Shown here piece by piece: positions 492 to 14,168 of a DNA stretch of 14,809 nucleotides. Every line of letters begins with the position of its first letter. The first letter of the stretch is position 1. A program made the position numbers and the translations under genes. A model generated the notes under the pieces. It saw only the letters and a list, made by a program, of their open reading frames with translations, had not been told where the DNA came from and did not search any database. The stretch is from NCBI GenBank assembly GCA_018672815.1, contig JABHDX010000008.1, positions 1-14,809 of the forward strand, in the 5' to 3' direction. The DNA is from Gammaproteobacteria bacterium (GTDB lineage: Bacteria; Pseudomonadota; Gammaproteobacteria; UBA11654).

Positions 492-1229
492 ATGAAGATT
501 AATAAAAATAAGCTAAAGCAGTTTGTCAGAGAAGAAACTAAAGCATTTCTTCTTAAAAAAGCCAAAGTGATTGCTGAGCAAGACGTTAATTCTAGCGAAG
601 ACGGTGGTACTAAAAAAATCATCAGAGGAAAAGCTGCCGAAAAACAAGAGAAAATAAAGCAATATAACCTGCAAAAAGAAAAGCAGAAAATACAAAAGGC
701 ATTAGCTTTAGGCTATCTAAAAAGACTACATGGCTATTTTATTAAAAACTTTTATAACAGAAAATTAAATGAACAATTCGACGCAGGAATTACCTTCAGC
801 ACACTTTTAAATTTTAAAGATAAATTTGACCTATCAAGATATTTACCCAGTAAAGAAGACATCGGTGAAATACAAAAAGTAGAAAAATCACTTAAAGATA
901 TTTTAAACAGCTTTTTTGTTGAGGCTGCATCTGTGAAGCAAGCAGTCATAAAAAATAAAAAAACATACCCAGAAAAATGGGGAGACTATGACCAAGTTAC
1001 GCTTAAGGCAATAGATGAATATATACAAAAAGTACGTAACCTTGCTATAGCAGCAAAAAAGATAATGAGCAGAGTAAAAAAGCTTGCAGAGCTTACAAAG
1101 CTGGAAGATGCAGCCCAAGAAAATATCTGGAAAGACTATAAAAAAGCAAGTGATGAGCTAACAAAGGGTGAGAGTGGTGATACACTTCTTAGAAATATAT
1201 TAGCTCAAATTGCATTCCAAGATAGCTAG
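492..1229 (+). CDS. Lysine-rich helical protein with N-terminal IKI..LKxfvxE peptide; unknown function
   Basis: I do not recognise the body of this 245-residue protein. I chose ATG 492 rather than GTG 480 because the protein then begins exactly with MKINKNKLKQFVREE, which matches the short peptide found on other proteins in this window (IKI-x4-LK-x-hydrophobic pair-x-E). The rest is very rich in Lys, Glu, Ala and Leu, with no signal peptide, membrane segment or cysteine motif, and looks almost entirely helical. Residues 40-75 are highly charged and could form a coiled coil. It opens the plus-strand block of virion-like genes. A structural, scaffold-core or packaged internal protein is a reasonable guess from composition and context, but no catalytic motif is visible. 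No good ribosome-binding site precedes either start. Confidence 0.8.
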   Translation: MKINKNKLKQFVREETKAFLLKKAKVIAEQDVNSSEDGGTKKIIRGKAAEKQEKIKQYNLQKEKQKIQKALALGYLKRLHGYFIKNFYNRKLNEQFDAGITFSTLLNFKDKFDLSRYLPSKEDIGEIQKVEKSLKDILNSFFVEAASVKQAVIKNKKTYPEKWGDYDQVTLKAIDEYIQKVRNLAIAAKKIMSRVKKLAELTKLEDAAQENIWKDYKKASDELTKGESGDTLLRNILAQIAFQDS

Positions 1230-1263
1230 ACTTGGTGTGCCTTAATTTAAACAAAATTTTACT

Positions 1264-1479
1264 GTGGTATTTGGTACTGGAATTATCGGAGCTGCCAAAG
1301 TGCTCAAAGAGCGTGGGTGGAAGCTTGACATTGTGTGGGAACAAGCAGGGCCAAAGCTTGTTTTTTCAATAAAAGAAAAGTTATTTGAAATAACGCTAAC
1401 TGAATTAACGGATAATCAAATTATTGTAGATCCTGAAGCACTGGCTGATTTGGCAGAAAAAATCATTAAGGAAAGCTAG
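1264..1479 (+). CDS. Small hypothetical protein, GTG start
   Basis: This is a 71-residue frame with GTG as the only available start. It begins with a hydrophobic, Gly-rich stretch (VFGTGIIGAAKVL), followed by a mixed alpha/beta-looking body and an acidic C-terminus. It could have a short membrane-associated start, but the hydrophobic run is too short for a confident transmembrane segment. No family is recognised. The bases before the start (TTTTACTGTGG) resemble those before the dnaJ-like gene (AATTACTGTGG) and part of those before the gene at 492 (TATTTACTGT). It lies 34 bases after the preceding gene. Its coding status rests on an intact frame with normal composition in a gene-dense region. 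Confidence 0.55.
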   Translation: MVFGTGIIGAAKVLKERGWKLDIVWEQAGPKLVFSIKEKLFEITLTELTDNQIIVDPEALADLAEKIIKES

Positions 1480-1489
1480 TATTTATAGT
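1480..1489 (+). promoter_or_regulatory. Intergenic TATTTATAGT motif (site 1)
   Basis: TATTTATAGT starts directly after the stop codon of the preceding gene and 65 bases before the ATG at 1545. The same ten bases follow the stop at 4424. Related TATTTAT cores lie in four other intergenic gaps of the window, each pointing at the downstream gene. This is a candidate promoter element; no transcription data support it. Confidence 0.3.
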
Positions 1490-1544
1490 ATGTAGCGCTA
1501 AATTTATTATCTGCTGGCTAATAATTAAAAAATAGGAACCAGCT

Positions 1545-1724
1545 ATGGATAATGATATAGAAGCTACGGCGAGAGTACTAAAAAAGATAGATAGTGAAAT
1601 TAATAAAGCAGCGGAGCTCTTGACTAATATGGCTAGCGCTATTGAAGCACTAGAAGTAAGAGCAAGCTTAATTATTGATAGTGAACTATTATCTAGCAAA
1701 AATATAAAGATAATAAGCCAGTGA
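1545..1724 (+). CDS. Small helical hypothetical protein
   Basis: This 59-residue protein starts at ATG 1545 behind a fair ribosome-binding site (AGGAA at 1534-1538, six bases away). It is Ala/Glu/Ile-rich with a heptad-like spacing of hydrophobic residues and looks like a short coiled coil. Its TGA overlaps the GTG start of the next gene as GTGA (1721-1724), a classic translational-coupling arrangement, so the two proteins are probably made together. No family is recognised and no catalytic or metal-binding motif is present. It may be a small structural partner of the ferritin-like fusion downstream, but that is inference from coupling alone. Confidence 0.65.
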   Translation: MDNDIEATARVLKKIDSEINKAAELLTNMASAIEALEVRASLIIDSELLSSKNIKIISQ

Positions 1725-2806
1725 AGCTTATTGACAGTGAAACAGGCTATGTCTATAATGATGATATAGCATGGGAAGATGCAATAGAGCTATCTGCAAA
1801 AATGGGCTCTATGGTAAAGAAAATAAATGACAATGTATATGTAAGAGTGTATAAGCGTCATAATAAGTTTCCTGAAAAGGTTCAACATGTAGTATACCAC
1901 CAGTCAGGCATGGCAGAAAGAAATAAAATGAAGAGTATAAAGATAAGTCCTAAAATGCTAAAAAAGATTATACAAGAAATATCAGAAAAAGATATCTCTG
2001 AAGCCAATCAGGATAAACTTCGTATGCTATATAATGACACTGTTCGCCTGATAGATAAAATGAATCCACAGACATCCCTGGAGGATACAAAAGCAATTCG
2101 TCAGATGGTTTTAAATATTGGAAATACTGATCTTGAACTTGGAGAAAAATTGCTTGCAATGTTTAACAAAAAAGAAGATAGTATTGAAAAAGTGTGGAGC
2201 CATGTCAGGCTAAAGACTCCAATTGCAAAGCGAAAAGAAGTACCTATGGTTACCACTAGGCGACCAAGAAGAGAGCATATAAAGATCGGCATCAGAGAGC
2301 TTAAAGAAATCATTGCTGAAGAGTGTGGAGGTCAAACCGGCGAAGGACCAACAGTTAATGATATATTATCAAGCTATGTAGCATCTCTTAAAGCATTAGA
2401 AATATGGGCACAATCAGCGCATCATCTAGCAAAGGGTGATGGCTTTGCCGGAGATCATACTGAGCTATATGGAAATTTATATACAGTGTTACAGGACATG
2501 TTTGATGCAACAGTAGAAAAAATCGTAGGAATTACCAATGATGAAACATTTGGCTGTGGTGAAAAAGTTACAGAAGAATCACTTATATATCTTAAGCAAT
2601 ATGAGTCAGCGGCTAATTTAGCTTCACATACTATAGCAAAGACTGCACTTGAAATGATAAAAAACCATGTTACATTAGTAGCATGGGTCTTTGATACGCT
2701 TGAGCAAATGGGAGAACTCACACTTGGACTTAACGATTTTCTTGCTGCTCAAGCAAGTGAGCTAGAAACTTTTGTATACCTACTACAGCAAAGAATAAAA
2801 AGCTAG
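1721..2806 (+). CDS. Dps/ferritin-like protein fused behind two copies of the IKI..LKxIIxE peptide
   Basis: This 361-residue protein has several modules. Residues 1-65 are an unrecognised mixed domain. Residues 73-86 (IKISPKMLKKIIQE) and 187-200 (HIKIGIRELKEIIAE) are two copies of the recurring short peptide. Residues 90-150 are a small helical spacer. Residues about 210-361 look like a Dps/ferritin-type four-helix domain: AHHLAKGDGF..DH..LY followed by MFDATVEK places H234, H246, D262 and E266 as the ferroxidase-type ligands. The H-to-H spacing of 12 and D-to-E spacing of 4 match E. coli Dps (H51, H63, D78, E82), with one extra residue between H246 and D262. Such proteins oxidise and store iron and protect DNA. 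The GTG start overlaps the previous stop. Internal Met70 and Met176 precede each peptide copy, so shorter products are possible. The ferritin assignment rests on motif and spacing. Confidence 0.75.
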   Translation: MKLIDSETGYVYNDDIAWEDAIELSAKMGSMVKKINDNVYVRVYKRHNKFPEKVQHVVYHQSGMAERNKMKSIKISPKMLKKIIQEISEKDISEANQDKLRMLYNDTVRLIDKMNPQTSLEDTKAIRQMVLNIGNTDLELGEKLLAMFNKKEDSIEKVWSHVRLKTPIAKRKEVPMVTTRRPRREHIKIGIRELKEIIAEECGGQTGEGPTVNDILSSYVASLKALEIWAQSAHHLAKGDGFAGDHTELYGNLYTVLQDMFDATVEKIVGITNDETFGCGEKVTEESLIYLKQYESAANLASHTIAKTALEMIKNHVTLVAWVFDTLEQMGELTLGLNDFLAAQASELETFVYLLQQRIKS

Positions 2807-2924
2807 CAAATGAAAATATACAGAAGCTACAATTATTAAAGAGAATATTAAAGAAATACTTCTTATCGAAAAACTTAGTAAGCAAACTAGAAAGACACTC
2901 AAGAAGAAGACAGATGATGGTAAT

Positions 2925-3113
2925 ATGCCCCTAGGTGCTTTAACAGCTGTATATAGAAAAGGGCTTGCAGCATGGCTTACGGGTCATAGGCAGGGCGTTG
3001 GACAGCATCAGTGGGCCATGGGCAGAGTAAATAGCTTCATAAAGGGTGGTAAGGCAAGAAAAGTTGATAAAGCCGAGTGGAAAAAAGTAAAGAAGCACAG
3101 AAAGAAAAAATAA
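2925..3113 (+). CDS. DUF5824-like basic protein, probably 5'-truncated by a frameshift
   Basis: The 62 residues from ATG 2925 match my memory of a short basic phage family (DUF5824-type): TAVYRKGLAAW..GHR.G..QHQWAMGRVNSF..GGKARKVD, ending in a Lys-rich tail. The function of the family is unknown; a nucleic-acid or structural role is only suggested by charge. In the same frame the reading continues upstream without a stop to 2814, with protein-like sequence (IIKENIKEILLIEKL then LKKKTDDGN), but no ATG, GTG or TTG start is in that stretch. An ATG at 2810 lies one frame off, and removing one A from the AAAA run at 2813-2816 would join it to this frame and give a protein starting MKYTEATIIKE. The true gene is therefore probably 2810-3113 with a one-base indel. 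Confidence 0.65.
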   Translation: MPLGALTAVYRKGLAAWLTGHRQGVGQHQWAMGRVNSFIKGGKARKVDKAEWKKVKKHRKKK

Positions 3114-3117
3114 AGGT

Positions 3118-3864
3118 ATGGGCAGAACAACACTAGGCGGAAAGCAGATAAAAGATGAATCCATTAAGTCTGTTGACATTGCATCCGGTTCCATTAAGGC
3201 AGGGGAGTTAAGCCCAGAAGCAATTTCGGGACACACTACAATTACTGATGTTAGCTCAGCTGAAGACTATCTTTTAATATGGGATGCTAGTGATTCTACA
3301 CTTAAAAAAGCTGTACCATCAAATTTAGGTGTTAGTAGTGGTGGAGGATCATCTAGTGATACATTCCTACCAGCTAACGCAACATATTCTTTGGTTACAA
3401 ACCTGTTAGGCTCTGGTACACCAGCAATGGGTAGCTATCAGTCATTTACTGCAGGAATAAAGTTCATGCCATTACGGCCCAGGACAATTACTGGCGCTAG
3501 ATTATGGAATAACCTAGCCTCTGATACAGCCTTTAAAATATCACTATGGGATGATGATCAAAGCAGGCTAGCATCAGTTAGCCAGACTATCTCTTCTGGT
3601 GAGGGTATGTATACAGTATCATTTTCTTCACCATATACCATAACAGATGATCAGGTTGGAAATATAATGTGCATAACATTTTATCATGAAACAGGTACTT
3701 CATATCCAAAAACAATATCAAATGGTGTTGTACCAGCGCCACCATTTGTCGCAGATCCTCACTATGTAATAGTGGGATATAATTCCTATGGACTAGGTGA
3801 TTCATTTCCAGGCTCATCAGCTTCAGAATACTATATGATTGAACCCATCTTCTCAACAAACTAG
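3118..3864 (+). CDS. Tail-fibre-like protein with repeat stem and C-terminal beta domain (DUF4082-like)
   Basis: This 248-residue protein follows the previous gene by four bases. Residues 5-35 carry short imperfect repeats (QIKDESIKSVDIASGSIKAGEL), the kind of repetitive stem seen in phage tail or neck fibres. Residues 38-70 contain the segment LLIWDASDSTLKKA that I associate with fibre proteins of uncultured phages. A Gly/Ser linker spans 72-80. Residues 105-245 form a beta-rich domain with GIKFMPLRPRTITGARLW and KISLWDDD, similar to DUF4082-type carbohydrate-associated domains. No signal peptide or membrane segment is present, which fits a virion component rather than a secreted host protein. 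It probably contributes to surface recognition; the receptor is unknown. The fibre-like architecture is visible, while the domain name is from memory. Confidence 0.7.
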   Translation: MGRTTLGGKQIKDESIKSVDIASGSIKAGELSPEAISGHTTITDVSSAEDYLLIWDASDSTLKKAVPSNLGVSSGGGSSSDTFLPANATYSLVTNLLGSGTPAMGSYQSFTAGIKFMPLRPRTITGARLWNNLASDTAFKISLWDDDQSRLASVSQTISSGEGMYTVSFSSPYTITDDQVGNIMCITFYHETGTSYPKTISNGVVPAPPFVADPHYVIVGYNSYGLGDSFPGSSASEYYMIEPIFSTN

Positions 3865-3873
3865 TAAAAAGCT

Positions 3874-4098
3874 ATGCCTTATAAAATAAAAAAAGAAAAA
3901 TGCGTACAGTCTGATGGGGATAGGGGAGCATACACTTTATCCTATACTGATAAGAAGGGCAAGCAACACAAAAATTGCCACACATCCAAAAAGAAGGCAA
4001 AGGGTCAGATTGCTGCAATTGAGGGTCAATGGGAAAGTAAAGACTACTCAACACTAAAAGAATTAATACATGAAATGCTTATAGAGCTATTTAAATAA
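3874..4098 (+). CDS. Small basic phage-type protein
   Basis: This 74-residue protein starts nine bases after the fibre gene. Its middle (SKKKAKGQIAAIEGQWE) resembles the end of many small proteins in phage genomes, where a Lys-rich region precedes an AIEGQ motif. Two Cys residues (10 and 35) do not form a zinc knuckle on their own. The C-terminus STLKELIHEMLIELF has the LKE-hydrophobic-hydrophobic-x-E look of the recurring peptide described elsewhere in this window, here at the opposite end of the protein. The role is unknown. The compact spacing places it in the same transcription unit as the fibre-like gene. Confidence 0.65.
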   Translation: MPYKIKKEKCVQSDGDRGAYTLSYTDKKGKQHKNCHTSKKKAKGQIAAIEGQWESKDYSTLKELIHEMLIELFK

Positions 4099-4103
4099 TA
4101 TAA

Positions 4104-4424
4104 ATGATTAGTGCATGTGACCTATTAGTTGGGCATCTATATACATTTAAAATTATAGAAGATGATAATGATAGTGCTTTGCTACTATGGGTTCCTAGCT
4201 ATAGCACAAATGACTTTGTTGGTTCAGTAGTTAATCTTGATGAATATTATATTCTAGTTAATATTGTACAGCCACCCTTATTAGACAATCACTTTAATGC
4301 AGTCTATATTGGAAAAAATAATAATATAAAATTACTAAATCGCTGGCCTTATTCATTTGTATCGTCAAATATGACAAAAATAAGTCTTTCTGACATGGGA
4401 CTTGATCATGTTTATACTGTATAG
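4104..4424 (+). CDS. Hypothetical protein
   Basis: This 106-residue protein starts five bases after the previous stop and has no recognised family. It looks beta-rich, with alternating hydrophobic residues (YTFKII, ALLLWV, YYILVNIV) and several aromatic residues, suggesting a small compact or SH3-like fold. There is no signal peptide, transmembrane helix or metal motif. It is the last gene of the 492-4424 block. Its final codons include TATACTGTATA, which also occurs at 424-434. Confidence that it is coding comes from the intact frame and tight spacing. Confidence 0.6.
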   Translation: MISACDLLVGHLYTFKIIEDDNDSALLLWVPSYSTNDFVGSVVNLDEYYILVNIVQPPLLDNHFNAVYIGKNNNIKLLNRWPYSFVSSNMTKISLSDMGLDHVYTV

Positions 4425-4425
4425 A

Positions 4426-4435
4426 TATTTATAGT
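4426..4435 (+). promoter_or_regulatory. Intergenic TATTTATAGT motif (site 2)
   Basis: TATTTATAGT begins two bases after the stop codon at 4424 and is identical to the site at 1480-1489. It lies 160 bases before the malate synthase start, at the left end of the longest intergenic stretch in the window. It is a candidate promoter element; its reverse complement is TATAAATA, the T4 late-promoter octamer, but no minus-strand gene lies downstream of it. Confidence 0.25.
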
Positions 4436-4450
4436 CTTTTCGGTGGCATA

Positions 4451-4492
4451 CAATTGAATGTGAACAATTGAAGACCAAATAGCAAGATCTTG
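4451..4492. promoter_or_regulatory. Repeats in the malate synthase leader: CAATTGAA direct repeat and CAAGATCTTG palindrome
   Basis: The 161-base gap 4425-4585 holds two copies of CAATTGAA (4451-4458 and 4465-4472), spaced 14 bases start to start and each containing the palindrome CAATTG. A perfect ten-base palindrome CAAGATCTTG follows at 4483-4492. This clustering upstream of a metabolic gene suggests protein-binding sites or a structured leader. I see no tRNA and no terminator hairpin with a U-run here. Confidence 0.3.
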
Positions 4493-4537
4493 AGTGTGTG
4501 CTCCCACTGTCGAGTTTAGCTGTCTAATACAAAAATA

Positions 4538-4548
4538 TATTTATCATA
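4538..4548 (+). promoter_or_regulatory. TATTTATCATA motif upstream of malate synthase (site 3)
   Basis: ATATTTATCATA at 4537-4548 is repeated exactly at 9134-9145, upstream of the HAD gene. Here it ends 38 bases before the malate synthase ATG, a suitable distance for a promoter -10-like element. It belongs to the TATTTAT-core set described in the findings. Confidence 0.35.
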
Positions 4549-4585
4549 ATGCGGCATTTCATACTAAAATTACCTATAAAACGCA

Positions 4586-6199
4586 ATGAGTAATATAGGC
4601 CCTAGAATATTTACAAAAAAAACAAAAACTGGCTCTGCTATTCTTTCTAAGTCGGCTGCTGAATTTTTAACAGCACTTGATACTGCATTTACTAAAAGAA
4701 TTATTAACTGCAGGAAGCTTAGAAAGAAAGAACAGAAAAGCTATAATAAAGGTCGACTGCCTAAGTTTGATAAAAAGACCTCTTACATAAGGAATGGAAA
4801 ATGGAAAATAAAACCAGTTCCGGAATTTTTAGAAAAAAGAATTGTTGAAATAACAGGGCCTGTTGATCGAAAGATGATCATTAATGCTCTCAACTCTGGA
4901 GCAGATGTCTTTATGGCTGACTTTGAAGACTCAAGCTCACCTACATGGCAAAACATGCTAGATGGACAGAAAAATCTTAAAGATGCCATTAATAGAACTA
5001 TTCAGTTTAAGCATCCAACAAACAATAAGATATATAAGCTAAATGATAATACAGCCATACTCTTTGTTCGCCCTAGGGGACTTCACTTAGACGAAGTACA
5101 TTTTCAAACTGATGTAGGGGCAATACCGGCTTCCCTTTTTGATTTTGGACTTTATTTTTTCCATAATGCAAAAAAGCTTTTAAAAAGTGGCTGTGCACCA
5201 TGCTTTTATCTTCCTAAATTGCAACACAGCAGAGAAGCAAAACTATGGAATGATATTTTTGTTTTTGCGCAGGGCTATATAGGTATCCCTGAAGATAGTA
5301 TTAAGGCCACAGTGCTTATAGAAACATTGCCGGCAGTATTCCAAATGGATGAGATACTATATGAATTAAGAAACCATAGTGCTGGCTTAAATTGTGGCAG
5401 GTGGGATTATATTTTTAGCTATATAAAGACGTTACAAAAGCATAAACAGTTTGTGCTTCCTGATAGAGATCAGGTGACAATGACCGCACCATTTATGAAA
5501 GCCTATACCCAGCTGCTTGTAAAAACGTGTCACCTAAGGGGAGCACATGCAATGGGTGGAATGGCGGCCCAGATACCAATTAAAAATGACGAAGAAGAAA
5601 ATAAAGCTGCGCTGCTAAAGGTAAAATTAGATAAGACCCAAGAAGCTGAGGGTGGGTATGATGGTACATGGGTTGCCCACCCTGGCTTAATATCCACAGC
5701 AAGAGAAGCATTCTCTAAAGTCACTAAAGGTTCAAACAATCAGCTTGGTATTATTCCCAATATAACAGTAGAAGAAAAACAGTTACTAAATCCTGCTGAG
5801 GGTATCGTCACATTAGAGGGAATAAGAAAGAATATTAAAATTACTATTCGGTATATTGAAGCTTGGCTATGGGGCACTGGCTGTGTACCTCTTTATAACC
5901 TAATGGAAGATGCTGCTACAGCAGAGATAAGTAGAGCGCAGGTATGGCAGTGGATTAACCATGATACGCATGACAACTTTGGAAAAAAAGTTACAAAAAA
6001 GAGGGTAAAGCTATTAGTAGCTGAGCAGCTTAAACAGATTAAAAGTGAAGTTGGTGTAACAAGGTTTGACGCAGGAAAGTTTAATACTGCCAGCAAAATA
6101 TTTCAACAGATTGTACTTGATAAGAAGTTTATTGACTTTCTAACTCTGCCGGCATACCATAAATTATTAAATGAAACAGCAGGAATGCAGAATGAATAA
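4586..6199 (+). CDS. aceB: Malate synthase A
   Basis: Malate synthase condenses glyoxylate with acetyl-CoA to give malate and CoA, the second step of the glyoxylate bypass. The 537-residue length is close to E. coli AceB (533). Family motifs occur in order: GADVFMADFEDSSSPTW (about 105-121), LFVRPRGLHL with R162/R164, the ETLPAVFQMDEI Mg-binding segment with E246, NCGRWDYIFSYIK with D274, RGAHAMGGMAAQIP (318-331), YDGTWVAHPGL (358-368) and the C-terminal LMEDAATAEISR with the catalytic Asp at 442. All expected active-site residues are present, so it should be active. No isocitrate lyase (aceA) or regulator is in the window, so the glyoxylate source is unclear. It has its own 161-base leader with repeats, and its base composition looks like that of its phage-like neighbours. 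No ribosome-binding site is obvious. Confidence 0.95.
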   Translation: MSNIGPRIFTKKTKTGSAILSKSAAEFLTALDTAFTKRIINCRKLRKKEQKSYNKGRLPKFDKKTSYIRNGKWKIKPVPEFLEKRIVEITGPVDRKMIINALNSGADVFMADFEDSSSPTWQNMLDGQKNLKDAINRTIQFKHPTNNKIYKLNDNTAILFVRPRGLHLDEVHFQTDVGAIPASLFDFGLYFFHNAKKLLKSGCAPCFYLPKLQHSREAKLWNDIFVFAQGYIGIPEDSIKATVLIETLPAVFQMDEILYELRNHSAGLNCGRWDYIFSYIKTLQKHKQFVLPDRDQVTMTAPFMKAYTQLLVKTCHLRGAHAMGGMAAQIPIKNDEEENKAALLKVKLDKTQEAEGGYDGTWVAHPGLISTAREAFSKVTKGSNNQLGIIPNITVEEKQLLNPAEGIVTLEGIRKNIKITIRYIEAWLWGTGCVPLYNLMEDAATAEISRAQVWQWINHDTHDNFGKKVTKKRVKLLVAEQLKQIKSEVGVTRFDAGKFNTASKIFQQIVLDKKFIDFLTLPAYHKLLNETAGMQNE

Positions 6200-6386
6200 T
6201 GAAAAGATTACAAAGATGCTATATGATATTGAGCAAAGCACATATACGCTTAGAGCACTTTTACAAGAAAAAGGCTTAGCATTTAAGGCTGAATCAATTA
6301 TTAATATTATTAGTGATATTAGGCAAAATATTGCTAGCAATTCTATCAATGAGTTAAAAGGAAAAAAAGATATTTTATTAGGATAA
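6192..6386 (+). CDS. Small helical hypothetical protein overlapping the malate synthase end
   Basis: The frame is open from ATG 6171, but I prefer ATG 6192 because AGGA at 6181-6184 sits seven bases before it, whereas nothing precedes 6171. The start overlaps the end of malate synthase by eight bases, which implies translational coupling. The 64-residue product is helical, with Ile/Leu repeats (IINIISDIRQNIASN), and carries no recognised motif. It is probably co-expressed with malate synthase and the small gene after it. The function is unknown. Confidence 0.6.
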   Translation: MNNEKITKMLYDIEQSTYTLRALLQEKGLAFKAESIINIISDIRQNIASNSINELKGKKDILLG

Positions 6387-6390
6387 TTAA

Positions 6391-6546
6391 ATGAATAAAG
6401 CTAATATTAGAAAAGTTGATGGTGGTTATATTGTTGAGACAGTTATACCTGCAAAAACAATAAAAGAAACTGTATGTGCCGATTTCGATAGTCTCATGCA
6501 GGTCTTGCAGACTTATTACAAAGAAACTAGTAGTAAGGACAGATGA
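6391..6546 (+). CDS. Small phage-type hypothetical protein (51 aa)
   Basis: ATG at 6391 to TGA at 6544-6546 gives 51 residues, beginning four bases after the previous stop. The pattern KVDGGYIVET followed by ETVCADFDSLMQVLQTYY looks like small proteins I associate with tailed-phage genomes: a two-stranded start with GGYIVE, then a helix. It carries one Cys and no catalytic motif. It has no clear ribosome-binding site and may be read through coupling with the gene before it. The final SSKD resembles the NSSKD near the end of the small protein at 9596-9766, a minor similarity that may be chance. Confidence 0.55.
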   Translation: MNKANIRKVDGGYIVETVIPAKTIKETVCADFDSLMQVLQTYYKETSSKDR

Positions 6547-6598
6547 GCTTTTAAACATAACACTGTACTTAAACAAATAAAAATTAATAATAATTACT

Positions 6599-7606
6599 GT
6601 GGCTGATTTTTATAAAATACTTGGTATAGATAAAAGTGCCACCGAAGATGAAATAAAAAAAGCTTATAAAAAGCTAGCATTAAAATACCATCCTGATCGA
6701 AATAAGGCGCAGGATGCAGCAAAGCAGTTTAAACAAATTACAGAAGCATATGAAACTTTAAGTGATAAAAAAAAGCGTATTGCCTATGATTCATTTGGTA
6801 GTAAAGGGCAACATGATTCTGATATTTTTTCCCACTTCCATACAAACTTTGGTGATATTTTTGGTGACTTTTTTCGAAACCAAGCTGGTACACAGCAAAG
6901 TAAAAAGCAAAATAATAACCTCATAAATATAAAATGTAGTCTATCACTAAAAGACTGTTACATTGGCTGTAAAAAAGATATTGTATTAGACATACCTGAA
7001 ACATGCTCAACTTGTGCCGGCACTGGTAAAAAACCAAAAACTAACCCTATATTATGTAGCGTATGTAGCGGAAAAGGTAGCATATCAATTAATAAGGGAT
7101 TTGTATTATTTACTCAGACATGTACTGCTTGTCGTGGAGCAGGAAAGATAATAACTGCCTGTGATAACTGTATGGGTAGAAGATATATATCAGTACGGCG
7201 AACTCTTAATGTTAGATTCCCGATGGGCGTTAAGGCAGGGCAGAATCTTAGGCTTAATTATACAAATAATTTTATTAGAGGCATTATCATTAGTATCTTA
7301 ATCGAAGAAAGCAAGACATTTACAAGATTAGAAGATGATATTGTTGTGTATGAGACTATTAACTTTGCTGAAGCTGTTTTAGGCACAGAGCGAAAGATTA
7401 TGCTTCCAAGCTTAGAGACTGTTAATATTAGTATACCAGCAGGGACTCAGTTTAATGATAGTATTAGAATAGCTAGCAAGGGGTTTTTTAACAATGAAAA
7501 AAACTCAACTGGTGACCTTGTTGTAAAAATTAATATACCTGTCCCTAAAAAGCCAACAAAAGATTGCCTTGAAATTATTAAAAAACTAAAAGTTATGCTT
7601 ATTTAA
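6599..7606 (+). CDS. dnaJ: DnaJ-type (type I Hsp40) co-chaperone
   Basis: DnaJ proteins deliver unfolded clients to DnaK and stimulate its ATPase. The 335-residue product starts at GTG 6599 and reads [10 protein letters not shown]. The J domain (1-66) has the essential HPD at 31-33. A short Phe-rich G/F-like linker follows (about 67-95), with much less Gly than usual. The zinc-finger region has four CxxC motifs in order: [24 protein letters not shown] and CDNCMGRR; the last has lost the usual final Gly. The C-terminal client-binding domain ends early, near KKLKVMLI, so the protein is roughly 40 residues shorter than E. coli DnaJ (376) and may lack the dimerisation tail. No dnaK or grpE is in the window, so it probably works with the host DnaK. 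The gene follows a 52-base AT-rich gap and precedes a thioredoxin-like gene by four bases. Confidence 0.9.
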
Positions 7607-7610
7607 TTAA

Positions 7611-8189
7611 ATGAAGCGCTTTATCATAGTTTATTTATTTATTACTGCTATCATAGCATTAGCCCCTAAAGATAGTACCGAAATACAGGGCATTAATAAT
7701 ACTAATACTAAAAAATCTGAATTAGGTTTACAGAGTAAGTGTGGGTTTTATGTCAATAAAACAGCCTGTAACTTTACATTAAAAAATCAGTTTGGAAAAA
7801 ATGTAACACTATACGACTTAATGGGGAAGGTTATTGTACTAGATTTTAGCACAATGTGGTGTTGGCCATGCAATGCTGCAGCAATGTCTACTAGAGATAT
7901 ACAGAAAAAATATGGCAATAATGTTGCATATATTACAATCATAGCTGAAGATGAACAAGGTAAGCTCCCAACAAAGAAAAAGCTTTTAAAGTGGGCAAAT
8001 CGTTTTTGGATAACAACACCCTATGTACTAGCAGCAAATGACAAGCTTTTTGCCTCAAAACTCACAAGTGGCTGGAAAATTAAAGCATGGCCAACATTTG
8101 TAATCATAAATAGAAAAATGAAAATTGTTGATTACTTTGAAGGCTTTAGCAAAAAGTATGTTGAAAAGAAAATTGAAGAAAACCTATGA
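7611..8189 (+). CDS. Exported thioredoxin-fold protein (TlpA/redoxin-like)
   Basis: This 192-residue protein has an N-terminal hydrophobic segment (IIVYLFITAIIALA, about 4-18) behind Lys-Arg, so it is probably exported to or anchored at the inner membrane facing the periplasm. The thioredoxin domain spans about 54-192: VIVLDFSTMWCWPC with the redox pair C84/C87, and the cis-proline in AWPTFVI at P161. The CWPC active site resembles TlpA/ResA-type proteins, which reduce or rearrange disulfides outside the cytoplasm. An extra Cys pair (C44, C53) precedes the domain. It follows dnaJ by four bases and overlaps the end of the convergent kinase-like gene by six bases. The pairing with DnaJ suggests a joint role in folding, but one partner is cytoplasmic and the other exported. 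The exact partner is unknown. Confidence 0.8.
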   Translation: MKRFIIVYLFITAIIALAPKDSTEIQGINNTNTKKSELGLQSKCGFYVNKTACNFTLKNQFGKNVTLYDLMGKVIVLDFSTMWCWPCNAAAMSTRDIQKKYGNNVAYITIIAEDEQGKLPTKKKLLKWANRFWITTPYVLAANDKLFASKLTSGWKIKAWPTFVIINRKMKIVDYFEGFSKKYVEKKIEENL

Positions 8190-9065
8190 GCTAAAAACCA
8201 GTCTTCTAAGTCTTTCTTCAATTGTCTCAACAGTGCCGGGTGAACCTGTAATTTTTGATATCCCTAGGTCAATTAAGACTAGTGTACCATCTGGTCTTTT
8301 CATCATATTTCCTGCATGATAGTCATGGAAATCTATGCCTAAATTGTTGAGCGTATTAACAAGATCTCTAATCTTATATTCTTTTACCAAAAGATTCCAC
8401 TGATTGTTTACAGAGTTCACAAACTCTCTTGCTTCTTTTGAATTATAATTTTCTGGAAATTTCTTTTTTACCTGCCTAATAATATAATTCTTTACTTTTT
8501 CTTTTATTTTATTCCAATCACCAGAGGAAGTACGCAACCATACAGGTAAGCCTGTTGCAACAAGTGCATTATTGAATTTTTTTGAAACATCTTTTGGAAG
8601 TGATAACAACTTTTCCTGTGTAATTCCAAAATAACCCGTGTCACCAAAAGACCACACACTATAAAAGTCTACAATATTAGGTAAATTCTTTCCCTTTAAG
8701 ATATTTGCAACAGCTGCTTCTTGAGCATCATTAGTAATCTTTAGTACTCTATTTCCTAAATCTAATGCTACACCATGAGTGCCTATACCCATAGGCTGAA
8801 GACTGTCTGCCTTTGTAGCACTAATACCCACTTTTGCCATACCCTTTGGAAATTTTTGAATTAATTCTCTAGCAATATCAGGTGTTACAGCAGCAGGAGC
8901 TTCATTTATAGAAAAAGATAAACTAGGCTGAATTGTAGACGGCAGGCCAAATGTCTTTGCTTTATCCCAACGCTTATCTTTCTTCTTTTTTTCAAGTATA
9001 TTTACTTCTCTTATAATACCCTTGAGTTCACCTAACGTAATTTTTATTTTTCTATCTTGTTTCAT
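8184..9065 (-). CDS. Protein kinase-like protein with N-terminal IKI..LKxIIxE peptide
   Basis: This 293-residue protein begins with KIKITLGELKGIIRE (6-20), the recurring peptide of this window, then a Lys-rich linker. A kinase fold follows: a glycine loop G-I-G-T-H-G (93-98), the VLKIT strand with K109, a helix-C Glu near 116, the catalytic segment FHDYHAGNMM with D248 and N253, and IDLG with D266 in the place of DFG. These residues suggest it can bind ATP and may be active. The YHAGN form of the catalytic loop is closer to ABC1/APH-type kinases than to the HRD loop of eukaryote-like kinases. The substrate is unknown. No membrane segment is present. It is divergent from the HAD gene and overlaps the thioredoxin-like gene tail-to-tail by six bases. 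Confidence 0.75.
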   Translation of the reverse strand: MKQDRKIKITLGELKGIIREVNILEKKKKDKRWDKAKTFGLPSTIQPSLSFSINEAPAAVTPDIARELIQKFPKGMAKVGISATKADSLQPMGIGTHGVALDLGNRVLKITNDAQEAAVANILKGKNLPNIVDFYSVWSFGDTGYFGITQEKLLSLPKDVSKKFNNALVATGLPVWLRTSSGDWNKIKEKVKNYIIRQVKKKFPENYNSKEAREFVNSVNNQWNLLVKEYKIRDLVNTLNNLGIDFHDYHAGNMMKRPDGTLVLIDLGISKITGSPGTVETIEERLRRLVFSS

Positions 9066-9130
9066 TATAAATTAATTATCTTTACATAGTAAGATATTTT
9101 ACGTAACACTGTCTTTTTTTACTAGAAAAA

Positions 9131-9145
9131 ATGATATTTATCATA
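9131..9145. promoter_or_regulatory. 14-base inverted repeat ATGATATTTATCAT containing the TATTTATCATA motif (site 4)
   Basis: ATGATA-TT-TATCAT (9131-9144) has six-base arms around a two-base centre in the gap between the kinase-like gene (minus, start 9065) and the HAD gene (plus, start 9147). It contains the 12-mer ATATTTATCATA (9134-9145) that also precedes malate synthase. The motif ends only one base before the HAD ATG, so as a promoter for that gene it would give an almost leaderless transcript. It could instead be an operator, or act for the minus-strand gene 66 bases away. Confidence 0.35.
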
Positions 9146-9146
9146 C

Positions 9147-9593
9147 ATGAGACAGTTTCTAAATGTATGGAAAAGGTTTTTAAAAGAAGGCTACACTAAT
9201 AAAAGTGTAATTACCTTTGATTTTGATGACACACTATTGGGTTTTAGATTAGATCCTAGCTGGGGAATTGTCCAAGATCAGCCTAAGCTTGATACCATTG
9301 AGCTACTTAAAAATTTTAAATTGGCCGGCCATATAGTCTACATAGTAACAAGCCGGCATGAAAAAAATGAAAAAAACAACAGCTATGATAAAGCCCACCC
9401 AGCATTTGTTACATCTGTAACTGAGTTTATAGATCAACATAATCTGCCTGTTGATGGTGTATACTTTACAAATGGTACATTAAAATTTAAAAAACTTATT
9501 GAGCTACAATCAATTCGTCACTATGATGATGATACAGCTGAGATTGAAGCTATAAAACAATATGCACCAAATATTGAAGCAGTTATGGTATAA
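9147..9593 (+). CDS. HAD-superfamily phosphatase with N-terminal targeting-like peptide
   Basis: This 148-residue protein has haloacid-dehalogenase motifs in order: motif I ITFDFDDTL with the nucleophile D25 and acid D27, motif II IVTSR with the Ser/Thr at about 66-69, a Lys in GTLKFKK for motif III, and an acidic motif IV HYDDD near the C-terminus. Such enzymes remove phosphate from nucleotides, nucleic-acid 3' ends or small metabolites; the missing cap domain and small size suggest a compact phage-type phosphatase or 5'-nucleotidase. Residues 1-14 (MRQFLNVWKRFLKE) precede the first strand of the fold and end in LKE, similar in form to the T4 capsid-targeting peptide. The substrate cannot be told from the sequence. 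A small gene follows after two bases. Confidence 0.75.
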   Translation: MRQFLNVWKRFLKEGYTNKSVITFDFDDTLLGFRLDPSWGIVQDQPKLDTIELLKNFKLAGHIVYIVTSRHEKNEKNNSYDKAHPAFVTSVTEFIDQHNLPVDGVYFTNGTLKFKKLIELQSIRHYDDDTAEIEAIKQYAPNIEAVMV

Positions 9594-11192: not shown

Positions 11193-11489
11193 ATGGTTAA
11201 AAAAGGTGATTTAATCATGTTTCATGGACCTGAATTTTATTTTAAAAATAAACTTCTTTGGGCCACAGATAGCTTCTTATCATATAGTGAAGTTGCATTC
11301 TATATTTCAAGCAATGAAATATATGTTGTAATTGACATCTTTGAAACAAAGAGCTATCGTGAATCTCATGGAGGTAATAAGTGGTTTAATATTATGGAGC
11401 CATATGGAATATGTGGCTGGTGGTGGGATATTAGCCTAGCAATAAATGAAGAATATAGTGGTGTAAGAATAAAAAAAGTTAATGACTAA
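11193..11489 (+). CDS. Small aromatic-rich hypothetical protein
   Basis: This 98-residue protein begins MVKKGDLIMFHG, which reads like the first strand of a small SH3-like or barrel fold (K-x-GDL pattern). It is rich in Phe, Tyr and Trp, with a Trp triplet in GICGWWWDIS near residue 70. No signal peptide or membrane helix is visible. Its last 11 bases overlap the end of the convergent nucleotidyltransferase gene, so there is no room for a terminator between them. The function is unknown. Confidence 0.6.
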   Translation: MVKKGDLIMFHGPEFYFKNKLLWATDSFLSYSEVAFYISSNEIYVVIDIFETKSYRESHGGNKWFNIMEPYGICGWWWDISLAINEEYSGVRIKKVND

Positions 11490-12195
11490 CATTTTCCATA
11501 GACATAAGCTCATCATACATACTAGATGATTCATCCCATAGCTTTTTAATATAGCCCTTATTTCTAAGAAGCTTATAAGCAAGGTTTTCTATTGAAAATT
11601 CGCCTTCTTTTTCAAGCCCGCACTGACGCATTTTTTTTATCTTATCTTTAAGCAGCTCTAACTTATCAAGCTTGTCAAAAGAATCTAACTCTAACGTTGA
11701 GTTAATTAATCTAATTAACTGATTGGATTTATTAATAACCCCATAGTAGTCTATAATTTTTTCAGACTTACCTGGGTCCGGCTTTTTTATCCATTCATTA
11801 TTAAGTACACTGTAGACCCCTGTAGAGTGGTGCGGATCTCCTATATTCTCTGCATAGACTTCAACTTCACTACCTCTAATAAAAATATCATGTTCATCAT
11901 TCCATAAAGATTTTTTTGCTAATAGAAAATCTCTTACAAGATCCTCATTTTTATTAATCTTTGAAAAATCTAAAATTAGATGTAGATCTATATCACTATA
12001 TTTTGAATAATTAAAGTTTGCCAATGAGCCAGTAAATGTTACATCGGAAATGCTAACTGGAATGTCAAGCTCTTTAATAAACTCAGAGGCAATTTTTAAA
12101 AGTCTTTTTCTTACCTCAGGCCTAAGCTTATCGCCATTCCAGAGCTTCTGGTTTAAGGCTGAGTGTACTTTAATATCTTTAAAGATGTCTTCCAT
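11479..12195 (-). CDS. Phage-type nucleotidyltransferase (Pol beta superfamily)
   Basis: This 238-residue protein has the nucleotidyltransferase signature GS-x10-D-x-D: TGSLANF with G56/S57, then SDIDLHLILD with D68 and D70, and a third possible acidic ligand in EVEVYAEN. The N-terminal region (HSALNQKLWNGDKLRPEVRKRLL) matches a pattern I recall from predicted nucleotidyltransferases of marine phages. These enzymes transfer a nucleotide to a protein, RNA or small molecule; the target of this phage subgroup is not established as far as I know. The C-terminal 90 residues are helical and charged. It is the last gene of the minus-strand run and overlaps a convergent gene by 11 bases. The active-site residues appear intact, so it should be catalytic. 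Confidence 0.75.
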   Translation of the reverse strand: MEDIFKDIKVHSALNQKLWNGDKLRPEVRKRLLKIASEFIKELDIPVSISDVTFTGSLANFNYSKYSDIDLHLILDFSKINKNEDLVRDFLLAKKSLWNDEHDIFIRGSEVEVYAENIGDPHHSTGVYSVLNNEWIKKPDPGKSEKIIDYYGVINKSNQLIRLINSTLELDSFDKLDKLELLKDKIKKMRQCGLEKEGEFSIENLAYKLLRNKGYIKKLWDESSSMYDELMSMENVSH

Positions 12196-12428: not shown

Positions 12429-13238
12429 TTATTTTTTCTTACATTTTGCTAAAAAGCACTGTATGGCATCTCTATGTGCAAAGAAGCCTAAGTGCATTGG
12501 TGCACGGATATTCATATAAGAAGCTATTCCGATTAACTCACCAGAGCGTGTATAGAGGCCGCCACCAGAATTTCCAAAATATATCGGTGCAGTTACCTGT
12601 ATAACTAATCTATTTGACATGCTCAATGTTGTTCTGTCATGTTCACGTATTCCTGAGACATGTCCATATGAGTATGTAAAGGGTATTCCAACTGTGTGAC
12701 CTACGACATGTATTTCTTGTCCTACTTTAATTTTTTCTTTAGATACCTTTACAAAGCTGTCTGTATAATACTGACTATCTACCCTAACCAATGCAAGGTC
12801 ATCATGGCTTGAAAAGCTTACAATAGTTCCCTTTTTAGGGAACTGTACGTTTACTCTCCCTGTATCATTTCCTTCCGGAACCTGATCTTTACTTAAGAAT
12901 GAAATCATTTTTCCAGCTAGCTTAAGATCTTCACCCTTTTCTATTTCATCATCTGTACTTTTTCTTGTAACATATGACTGTACACAGTGGTGTGCTGTTA
13001 GGAACTCACTTTTATTAATCCATACACCTGAGCAGTATATTCTTTGTAGCTTTAGCTCACACTCACCTACGCTATTGCGTATTCGGCATGTTTCCATGAC
13101 AAGTGCAACTGTTGAGTTTTTTAAATGCTTGACAAGCTTTACTCTACTAAGAGCACCTGAGTTATATTTTGTTTGACTGTGTGGTGCGCAATTAAGAGCG
13201 CAGAGCGTAAGAAGAAGTAAAAATATTTTTTTAAGCAT
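12429..13238 (-). CDS. Lipoprotein trypsin-like serine protease
   Basis: This 269-residue protein starts with a lipoprotein signal (MLKKIFLLLLTLCALNC) that puts the lipidated Cys at 17; Asn at -1 is atypical. The chymotrypsin-fold catalytic triad is complete: H84 in FLTAHHC, D147 in HDDLALV, and S224 in YFGNSGGGLY. Cys pairs near 51/60/69/85 could form disulfides, which fits export. No PDZ domain follows, unlike DegP/HtrA, so it is a stand-alone protease, probably facing the periplasm or cell surface. AGGGA at 13245-13249 (minus strand) is six bases before the start and supports it. In a phage context it could be a lysogenic-conversion or envelope-modifying gene; in a bacterium it would be a normal surface protease. 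The substrate is unknown. Confidence 0.85.
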   Translation of the reverse strand: MLKKIFLLLLTLCALNCAPHSQTKYNSGALSRVKLVKHLKNSTVALVMETCRIRNSVGECELKLQRIYCSGVWINKSEFLTAHHCVQSYVTRKSTDDEIEKGEDLKLAGKMISFLSKDQVPEGNDTGRVNVQFPKKGTIVSFSSHDDLALVRVDSQYYTDSFVKVSKEKIKVGQEIHVVGHTVGIPFTYSYGHVSGIREHDRTTLSMSNRLVIQVTAPIYFGNSGGGLYTRSGELIGIASYMNIRAPMHLGFFAHRDAIQCFLAKCKKK

Positions 13239-13307: not shown

Positions 13308-14168
13308 TTAAGAATTATAAACTGACATATATCTTTCGCCTCGATCACAGAGTATGGTGACTATAATACCATCAGGATTATTATGCTCGAGCCACTTTTC
13401 TGATGCTAGAATATTTGCTCCTGAGCTTATCCCAACGAATATCCCAGTATCTCTTGCAAGCTTTTTTGCTCTTTTAATAGCATCATCTGTTTTAATAGTA
13501 ATAATATCATCCATACAGCTAACACTTGCAAGAAAATCTTTTCCATCATTTATTCCTTGGATGCCGTGCGGCATCTCTACCGGCATTACCATACAGACTT
13601 TTGTATCTAGTGAACTATTCTTTATAAACTGACGGATACCTTCAATTGTGCCTCCAGTTCCAGAGCCGTGGATGAAGGCACACCACTTTTTTTCTAATCC
13701 TATAACCTGCCTATGTATCTCTGGAGCTGTAACTATTCTATGGCACTCAGTGTTATCAGGATTGCTAAACTGTAGTGGTGACCAAGCATTTTTATTCTCA
13801 TTTATAAACTGATCTCTCATACTAATAGCAGCTTCAAAGTCATTTGGTGGAGCATCAATAATTTCGGCGCCATATGATCTCATCATTTGCCGGCGTTCGG
13901 TTGACATGTTACTAGGCATAAAGATCCGGCAGGGCACTGAATATGATGATGCAACTGCGCTCAAGGCAATTCCAGTATTTCCGCTTGTTGCCTCACAGAA
14001 AATACTATCTCTATTAATTTTCTTTTGTTGAAATGCTTTATTAACTACGTAGTGCACCATTCGATCTTTAACAGAACCTGTTGGGTTGTATGTTTCAAGC
14101 TTCGCATAGATTTTATCACTAATTTTTAATAAAGGTGTATTACCTATAATGTCACTAAGTTGACTCAT
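13308..14168 (-). CDS. cysM: Cysteine synthase (O-acetylserine sulfhydrylase, CysK/CysM family)
   Basis: The enzyme makes cysteine from O-acetylserine and sulfide or thiosulfate using pyridoxal phosphate. The 286-residue protein is near the usual 290-320 and has family motifs in order: NTPLL (10-14), NPTGSVKDR with the PLP lysine K34, the substrate loop TSGNTG (61-66), the phosphate-binding GSGTGGT, GISSGAN with the Ser that contacts the PLP ring nitrogen, and the C-terminal CDRGERYMS. All key residues are present, so it is probably active. The length and NPTGSVKDR motif do not decide between CysK and CysM, so the symbol is tentative. No cysE or sulfate-reduction genes are nearby. It starts seven bases after the MscS-like gene and is probably co-transcribed. 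Cystathionine beta-synthase-type use is less likely, since there is no CBS domain. Confidence 0.88.
   Translation of the reverse strand: MSQLSDIIGNTPLLKISDKIYAKLETYNPTGSVKDRMVHYVVNKAFQQKKINRDSIFCEATSGNTGIALSAVASSYSVPCRIFMPSNMSTERRQMMRSYGAEIIDAPPNDFEAAISMRDQFINENKNAWSPLQFSNPDNTECHRIVTAPEIHRQVIGLEKKWCAFIHGSGTGGTIEGIRQFIKNSSLDTKVCMVMPVEMPHGIQGINDGKDFLASVSCMDDIITIKTDDAIKRAKKLARDTGIFVGISSGANILASEKWLEHNNPDGIIVTILCDRGERYMSVYNS

Follow-up and report, generated by a model that had tools for sequence, protein, structure and literature searches.

What could place one and the same short peptide at the start of, or inside, several otherwise unrelated proteins? The question is raised by a stretch of 14,809 nucleotides, here called the window, which comprises positions 1 to 14,809 of contig JABHDX010000008.1 (assembly GCA_018672815.1, filed as a Gammaproteobacteria bacterium). 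An earlier note, made from its letters, had described such a peptide and proposed a modular tag that sends enzymes into a phage capsid or marks them for cleavage, similar to the capsid targeting sequence (CTS) of phage T4. Our computational analysis suggests that the peptide is probably a propeptide that targets its cargo to the prohead core, and that it is functionally like the T4 CTS but unrelated to it in sequence; packaging, cutting and injection of the cargo would be the likely consequences.

One short peptide on unrelated proteins

The peptide shared in the window, which we call the class I tag, is confirmed, and all four copies were verified in the DNA. These are MKINKNKLKQFVRE at the start of a protein encoded at 492..1229 (tag at 492-533, plus strand), IKISPKMLKKIIQE and IKIGIRELKEIIAE inside a ferritin-like fusion protein (1937-1978 and 2279-2320, plus strand), and IKITLGELKGIIRE at the start of a kinase-like protein (9047-9006, minus strand); three of these coordinates were as first reported, and the kinase copy had been begun one codon early, at 9050. 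On a profile made solely of viral tags they score 19.6, 15.2, 18.2 and 18.1, respectively; the maximum over 715 random viral proteins, taken at any position, is 10.0. A regular expression for the tag, devised after the copies had been seen, gave three matches in the 27 window proteins tried, and residue shuffles gave a single match in 5 of 3000 cases and more in none. The peptide is also kept among relatives. P0005, which is 68% identical to the protein at 492, carries the tag as MKISRKKLKKIVKE, with MKI, KLK, V-x-EE and a later VIAEQD conserved. The ferritin fusion relatives P0002 and P0003 (67% and 63% identity) have an identical layout, in which both internal tags approximate I-K-[IV]-x4-L-[KR]-x-I-I-x-E, the second keeps [IV]-K-I, the x positions differ, and the linker behind the second copy differs widely in length. 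Relatives of the kinase-like protein likewise start with tag-like variants, e.g. MRIKLGRLRRLVREA and MIRTTMGRLRSLILED.

The start of the window's HAD-type protein, MRQFLNVWKRFLKE (9147-9188, plus strand), had been taken for a looser form of the same peptide, and this did not hold, as its class I profile score is negative, and it reaches 9.8 on the profile of a separate, second tag class. Class II, to which it belongs, was defined by a pattern devised after the HAD start and the starts of tag-locus proteins had been seen. On the class II profile one of 715 random viral genes reaches 8.4 and the next -6.2. The motif W-x(1,2)-[FY]-[LI]-x-E occurs within the first 30 residues of 18 of 1547 tag-locus open reading frames (ORFs), against 0.8 expected from its internal density, and in none of 715 random viral ORFs, while the fuller pattern MK-L-hydrophobic-hydrophobic-E-[NS]-W-x2-[FY]-L-x-E is found in at least 120 viral stretches and its permuted form in none. 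The 141 class II proteins fall into 84 families. In 117 class II loci, which were not chosen for class I, class I tags are present on 54 of 1591 ORFs and in 26 of the loci. Judged by their peptides, the protein at 492, the ferritin fusion and the kinase-like protein would thus be assigned to class I and the HAD protein to class II; because the HAD start fits one class and the other copies the other, the window holds both.

Beyond the window, the class I DNA pattern MKI-x4-LK-x-II-x-E was found in at least 120 stretches of viral contigs and its block-permuted control in 11 (for both classes these viral counts are numbers of stretches and are not scaled per base). The 120 viral loci hold 162 pattern matches, and the reading frame stays open for 30 codons or more behind 157 of them. 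The same pattern gave 81 stretches, mostly by chance, in 257 Gb of prokaryote genomes: 80 of these loci contained 89 matches, of which 39 were open for 30 codons and 18 looked true by eye, the latter on 7 contigs that are all titled as contigs of metagenome-assembled genomes (MAGs). Since the prokaryote matches are mostly chance and the true-looking ones lie on these 7 contigs, the peptide is not equally frequent in bacteria, which the earlier note had named as grounds for abandoning its proposal. One of the seven, the 306-kb NHDW01000006.1, carries a phage head module with its protease. This contig (G024 contig 5, L261-L276) is filed in the Methylococcaceae MAG TMED69 and has an S77 protease and 28 tagged genes; it looks like a phage and is probably mis-binned. 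The Halobacteriovorax MAG SP2999 has 14 tagged genes in an 8-kb stretch of its contig PBIO01000025.1 (L180), and an S77 protease on another contig (G023 contig 13).

A search with the class I profile, which was built from MKI-x4-[LF]K-x-II-x-E matches so that those positions are fixed by choice and [LI]-x-E at 20-22 is not, covered 120 viral loci, 8 MAG loci and four large contigs and identified 340 tagged genes; as some loci overlap, 302 genes are distinct. With the tag removed, the 340 fall into 235 families (blastp E-value 1e-3, single linkage), of which 189 are singletons and the largest has 43 members; as with the T4 CTS, one short N-terminal peptide is thus common to otherwise unrelated proteins. 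Tagged genes also stand in arrays. In two phages of about 300 kb that were picked since they bear tags, 23 of 399 ORFs (G005) and 28 of 442 (NHDW01000006) are tagged. Neighbouring ORFs are both tagged in 16 and 19 cases, where shuffles gave 1.3 and 1.7, and the longest runs comprise 11 and 16 genes. Two further genomes gave 5 of 175 (G008) and 1 of 513 (G026); the other tags of G026 are variants, for which a widened and partly circular profile (7 of its 12 seeds come from G026) yielded 10 matches of at least 14, 3 of them new. No tagged ORF was found in random viral loci (0/741), in bacterial loci after 9 phage-like loci had been set aside (0/693), or in the 150 of 169 kb of T4 that were scanned (0/257).

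The recognisable cargo is mixed. Among 76 scanned proteins we recognised pentapeptide-repeat, GNAT, kinase-like and HAD proteins, plus a weakly tagged NUDIX protein. The set was not random: it comprised long representatives of the tagged families, the window's four proteins, four from head modules, and proteins of G026, whose tags are in part weak or variant. Pfam assigned 19 families, each in 1 of the 76; PHROGs assigned 53, with one member each among the 25 listed except for one kinase family with two; and PADLOC matched 1 of the 76. Two tagged G026 proteins (L260:14858-15391 and L259:11528-12106) resemble ADP-ribosyltransferases by eye, the activity of T4's packaged Alt, and neither matched a Pfam family. 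Two tags were found in 15 of 356 distinct tagged proteins, three of which have a C-terminal copy (L030, L116 and L471). These proteins parallel the window's ferritin fusion and, more weakly, a small window protein of 74 residues (3874-4098, plus strand), whose C-terminus DYSTLKELIHEMLIELFK (4042..4095), which the earlier note does not mention, fits a loose motif and scores only 4.6 on the class I profile. In L223, L270, L471, L108, L067 and others the second tag in several cases still begins with MKITK, as if neighbouring tagged genes had fused.

Among cultured phages the best lead is Flavobacterium phage vB_FspM_immuto (immuto for short), whose host is Flavobacterium sp. LMO8 and in which one clear class I start (immuto35A_190, score 24.6) was present in the 40 kb read; 30 kb of Rhodothermus phage RM378 contained none. 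A typed 22-residue consensus tag searched by tblastn against 50,697 named phages returned nothing, such a query being too short to inform. Topic searches of the literature returned no title or abstract opening that names the tag, and no paper naming phage immuto; searches for the tag's letter strings did not find it either, and carry little weight since the T4 CTS letters were also absent.

The tag, the prohead protease and the head module

The strongest link between the tag and the prohead is a gene of the head module itself. Of 26 head modules, 24 have, within 3 kb after the prohead protease, a gene that encodes about 124-157 residues with a tag-like start (the regular expression for this gene was devised after the module ORFs had been read). 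In 11 genomes its start aligns without gaps to the cargo tags, and in 9 of these 11 it has E-I-L-x-E-G at positions 18-23. A profile of the 11 starts matched that of 155 cargo tags with 97.5% probability and an E-value of 7.6e-12 over 25 gapless columns, and the best of 60 column-shuffled tag profiles reached 11.1%. Conversely, the cargo profile scores at least 10 on 14 of the 24 head-module starts, versus none of 715 random viral genes. The place of this gene suggests that it encodes a core protein. A second small gene of the head module (about 83-122 residues) has a tag-like start by eye in 9 of these 11 genomes, with a score of at least 14 in two, and is placed like a further core protein (L229:16988-17353, L263:3940-4281, L359, L361, L363, L364 and L366-L368). 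When the tagged head-module proteins from two phages were searched against named phages, the matches did not rise above chance, so that cultured relatives were not found in this way.

A candidate for the protease that the earlier note had advised looking for is present in most of the records examined. The set comprised 30 viral contigs and 2 MAGs, of which 28 had been selected by their tags and 4 as relatives of the kinase. PF03420, the T4 gp21 family of S77 prohead proteases, exceeded the cut-off in 26 of these 32 and in 1 of 25 controls (Fisher 2e-9; with only the 7 controls that reach 80 kb, one of them positive, 0.002). PMC9026906 describes T4 gp21 as cutting after L/I-X-E, and this site is enriched behind the tag. 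In the 235 of 302 tagged proteins that were long enough, the density of [LI]-x-E at start positions 17-26 is 4.7 times that at 35-75. The ratio rises to 10.3 for sites with G, A, S or N behind the Glu, where S and G are favoured. Control motifs gave 0.5-0.9 ([LI]-x-K/R/D/Q/S), 1.6 (E-x-[LI]) and 1.7 ([VMF]-x-E). The peak lies at positions 20-22, with start position 20 in 59 of the 235 proteins; a site like that between the T4 CTS and its cargo is present as an excess and not in every protein. Moreover, the major capsid proteins of G005, G026 and immuto have a Glu at the column of T4 gp23 E65, the maturation site of the T4 protein. The residues around it read LLRE, VLKE and IVSE, of which IVSE departs from a strict [LI]-x-E.

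Together with the unrelated cargo and the peptide of the head-module gene, these comparative observations support the tie to capsid assembly that had been proposed. The predicted place of cutting moves, however: the commonest candidate is not the I-x-E within the conserved 14-mer, and lies instead about eight residues beyond that I-x-E, at an [LI]-x-E. In the window, putative sites of this kind are I-A-E at 570..578 (plus strand; VIAE followed by QD, where VIAEQD is identical in P0005 and the next residues differ), I-S-E behind the first ferritin fusion copy at 1994..2002 (plus strand; I92 and E94 are invariant in three aligned sequences) and, from its sequence only, I-L-E behind the kinase tag at 8991..8999 (minus strand).

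Tags also vary in a genome-specific way. The comparison covered 302 distinct tags from 111 contigs, of which 68 have at least two. Between tags that sit on non-homologous proteins of one contig the identity over nine variable positions is 0.538, whereas shuffled contig labels gave a mean of 0.409 and a maximum of 0.448 (0 of 500 shuffles reached the observed value). This likeness fits a reader that co-evolves with the tag, and recent copying of the leader also contributes, because same-codon sharing exceeds expectation.

What the tag might do

We envisage that the class I tag forms a short amphipathic helix, with the consensus MKITKxxLKxIIKEEL, often followed about eight residues on by [LI]-x-E and a small residue. 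Since the head-module protein starts with a like peptide, tagged cargo could join the prohead core and take its place there in a like manner. As the head matures, cutting after [LI]-x-E by the gp21-type protease would then follow, so that the helix is removed and the cargo stays in the head, to be injected along with the DNA. Cargo genes would be exchanged behind the conserved leader, which could give rise to the arrays of unrelated small genes with one tag, and the class II tag may work likewise. On a wider scale, which we would put at even chances, phages of a large and mostly uncultured group that have T4-type heads would use a peptide address code. In each genome the N-terminal helix of a head-core protein would have been copied onto as many as 20-30 unrelated genes, many of them in tandem, and every virion would thereby bring along a mixed arsenal for injection. 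There would be two parallel codes, MKITKxxLKxIIKEEL...LxE for class I and MKLLxENWRxYLxE for class II, and their genome-specific variants would suit a reader that evolves with them.

Other explanations account for part of these data. The tag might dock its cargo on the head core or another part of the virion and stay uncut, with [LI]-x-E as a mere end of an amphipathic helix; it is indeed amphipathic (helical moment 1.16 versus 0.78 when shuffled), and 118 of the 235 tagged proteins have no [LI]-x-E at positions 17-30. We consider this unlikely in view of the 4.7-fold enrichment that is specific to Glu and not seen for K, R, D, Q or S, the lean to S and G after it, and E-I-L-x-E-G at the like place in 9 of 11 head-module sequences. 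It is less likely still that the tag directs proteins to a compartment or complex inside the cell, such as a replication site, a nucleus-like shell or a membrane, and that the head-module gene merely has a like docking helix: although the GNAT, kinase-like, HAD and weakly tagged NUDIX proteins include enzymes able to act in the cell, the partner that shares the peptide is the gene after the prohead protease, and gp21-type proteases accompany the tag.

The shared start could also act chiefly in the DNA, as a conserved leader at which cargo genes recombine and whose peptide has little function. Same-codon sharing within tags does exceed expectation in three sets (0.65 versus 0.46, 0.58 versus 0.40 and 0.49 versus 0.39), but among relatives the peptide positions are kept while the x positions differ, tags are also internal and C-terminal, and the match to the head-module gene is one of protein profiles, which together make a DNA leader very improbable as the main cause. 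Finally, chance repetition of an ordinary amphipathic helix in one contig could be suspected, considering that the regular expression was devised after the copies had been seen and that acyl carrier proteins start in a tag-like way; one such protein (L037:3094-3336) was matched by its own first helix, a caution for such scans, and was dropped as cargo for this reason, while still counted within the 155 tags and 340 genes. The shuffles, the permuted pattern, the prokaryote scan, the family counts, the arrays and the profile scores refute chance, to which we give almost no credence.

Several observations nevertheless weigh against a propeptide for the prohead core. The tagged head-module gene is absent in 2 of 26 modules (G030 and G031, the latter with an ordinary class I gene at that place; in G029 it is present and interrupted by the contig end), and 13 of the 24 starts have, by eye, an insertion of about four residues and were left out of the profile match. 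An [LI]-x-E at 17-30 is present in no more than 117 of the 235 tagged proteins (27 of 235 in the control stretch), at least one pattern match is the ordinary acyl carrier protein L037, and internal and C-terminal copies occur here, unlike in T4, where the tag is N-terminal. The likeness of tags within a contig may reflect recent copying, as the same-codon sharing of 0.65 versus 0.46 expected indicates. As for the protease, 6 of the 32 records lack it, perhaps as fragments, the control contigs, which were the longer ones of the control sets, are still smaller on the whole, and in MAG G023 the protease and the tags lie on different contigs. No head gene was seen among the window's ORFs, so that its own protease is out of view, and three giant phages that share window genes (LR745206 included) gave no PF03420 match over the cut-off, with two weak ones below it, and no tag score of 16 within the short stretches scanned.

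Should the tag be a propeptide of the prohead core, a signature of 14-22 residues would list packed and injected phage genes from metagenomes alone, and the injected proteome of uncultured phages would become predictable from sequence; most of the tagged genes found here have no recognisable family. The orphan gene arrays of huge phages would then be candidates for early host-takeover or anti-defence proteins, capsid targeting tags may have originated by copying from a head-core protein, and the tags might be used to load foreign proteins into large phage heads.

The window's gene content and known packaging systems

The window itself is a mix of phage-type genes (a nucleotidyltransferase, the kinase, the ferritin-like fusion and a small protein that matches PHROG 28338) and bacterial-type genes (malate synthase, DnaJ, a thioredoxin-like protein and cysteine synthase), and a huge phage is its likeliest source. 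The tagged protein at 492..1229 (plus strand, 245 residues; relatives P0004 and P0005) was assigned no function by family search: PHROGs yielded no family at E 0.1, and its Pfam matches all fell below the cut-off. The fusion protein at 1721..2806 (plus strand, 361 residues) consists of an N-terminal piece, a tag, a middle piece, a second tag and a ferritin-like domain, with residues 212-357 matching PHROG 3636 (E 6.6e-6); P0003 is labelled a DNA-binding ferritin-like protein by its source. A structure model of the fusion was poor (predicted local distance difference test, pLDDT, 43.5) and was not used, and a search of viral contigs with its alignment, using patterns from the first residues only, gave no relative. 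At 8184..9065 (minus strand) the kinase-like protein of 293 residues, with its N-terminal tag and a linker, matches a PHROG kinase (E 6.8e-5). Its model has a pLDDT of 78.8, with low values in tag and linker, and in Foldseek retrieves kinases at a probability of 1.00 and TM-scores of only about 0.3. Relatives were found at six viral loci on contigs of 12-340 kb in a search of viral contigs, and none among named phages. The HAD-type phosphatase-like protein at 9147..9593 (plus strand, 148 residues) matches PHROG 1238 (E 3.2e-8) and PHROG 415, a polynucleotide kinase family (E 8.2e-6).

As to the remaining genes, the nucleotidyltransferase (11479-12195) matches 45 phage records and is common to Maribacter, Synechococcus, Prevotella Lak and giant uncultured phages, with 37-42% identity among the 20 of 45 matches listed. 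The nearest named phage for the cysteine synthase (13308-14168) is the 635-kb uncultured phage LR745206 (47.6% identity), which also encodes a nucleotidyltransferase like the window's. A complete malate synthase gene (4586-6199) lies among the phage-like genes; its matches in named phage records are only five Salmonella/Escherichia records, two of them of 501 kb with bacterial names, and a search of viral contigs gave no close relative. By eye, 2-415 and 12429-13238 look like bacterial lipoproteins, with a von Willebrand-type domain and a trypsin-like protease.

How does the tag compare with known systems? In the descriptions of PMC3012670 and PMC9026906, the T4 CTS is the segment that stays conserved among T-even internal proteins that otherwise differ (PMC3012670), sits as a short N-terminal peptide on unrelated proteins (IPI, IPII, IPIII and Alt), and is removed at the gp21 site L/I-X-E from a cargo that is diverse and injected. 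The T4 likeness proposed earlier survives as an analogy, and a sequence relation is undetectable by profile or hhalign: eleven T4 proteins score between -4 and -14 on the tag profile, hhalign stays within the range of shuffled sequences, and membership in the T4 CTS sequence family was dropped. The systems differ also in the length of tag plus site (about 22 residues here, 10 in T4), in the number of tagged genes (23 and 28 in two genomes here, four in T4) and in that the peptide here also starts a head-module protein. That gene resembles those of T4 gp67 and gp68 as one for a small protein beside the prohead protease in the head module, although the T4 genes stand before the protease and the tagged gene after it; hhalign against gp67 and gp68 was within the shuffled range, and descent from gp67 was dropped on that ground. 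The packaged and ejected head proteins of phiKZ and SPN3US also carry propeptides. PMC9026906 describes many different head proteins of these phages as processed by a distant gp21 relative, and it is this combination of many different proteins with gp21-type processing that likens them to the tagged cargo described here.

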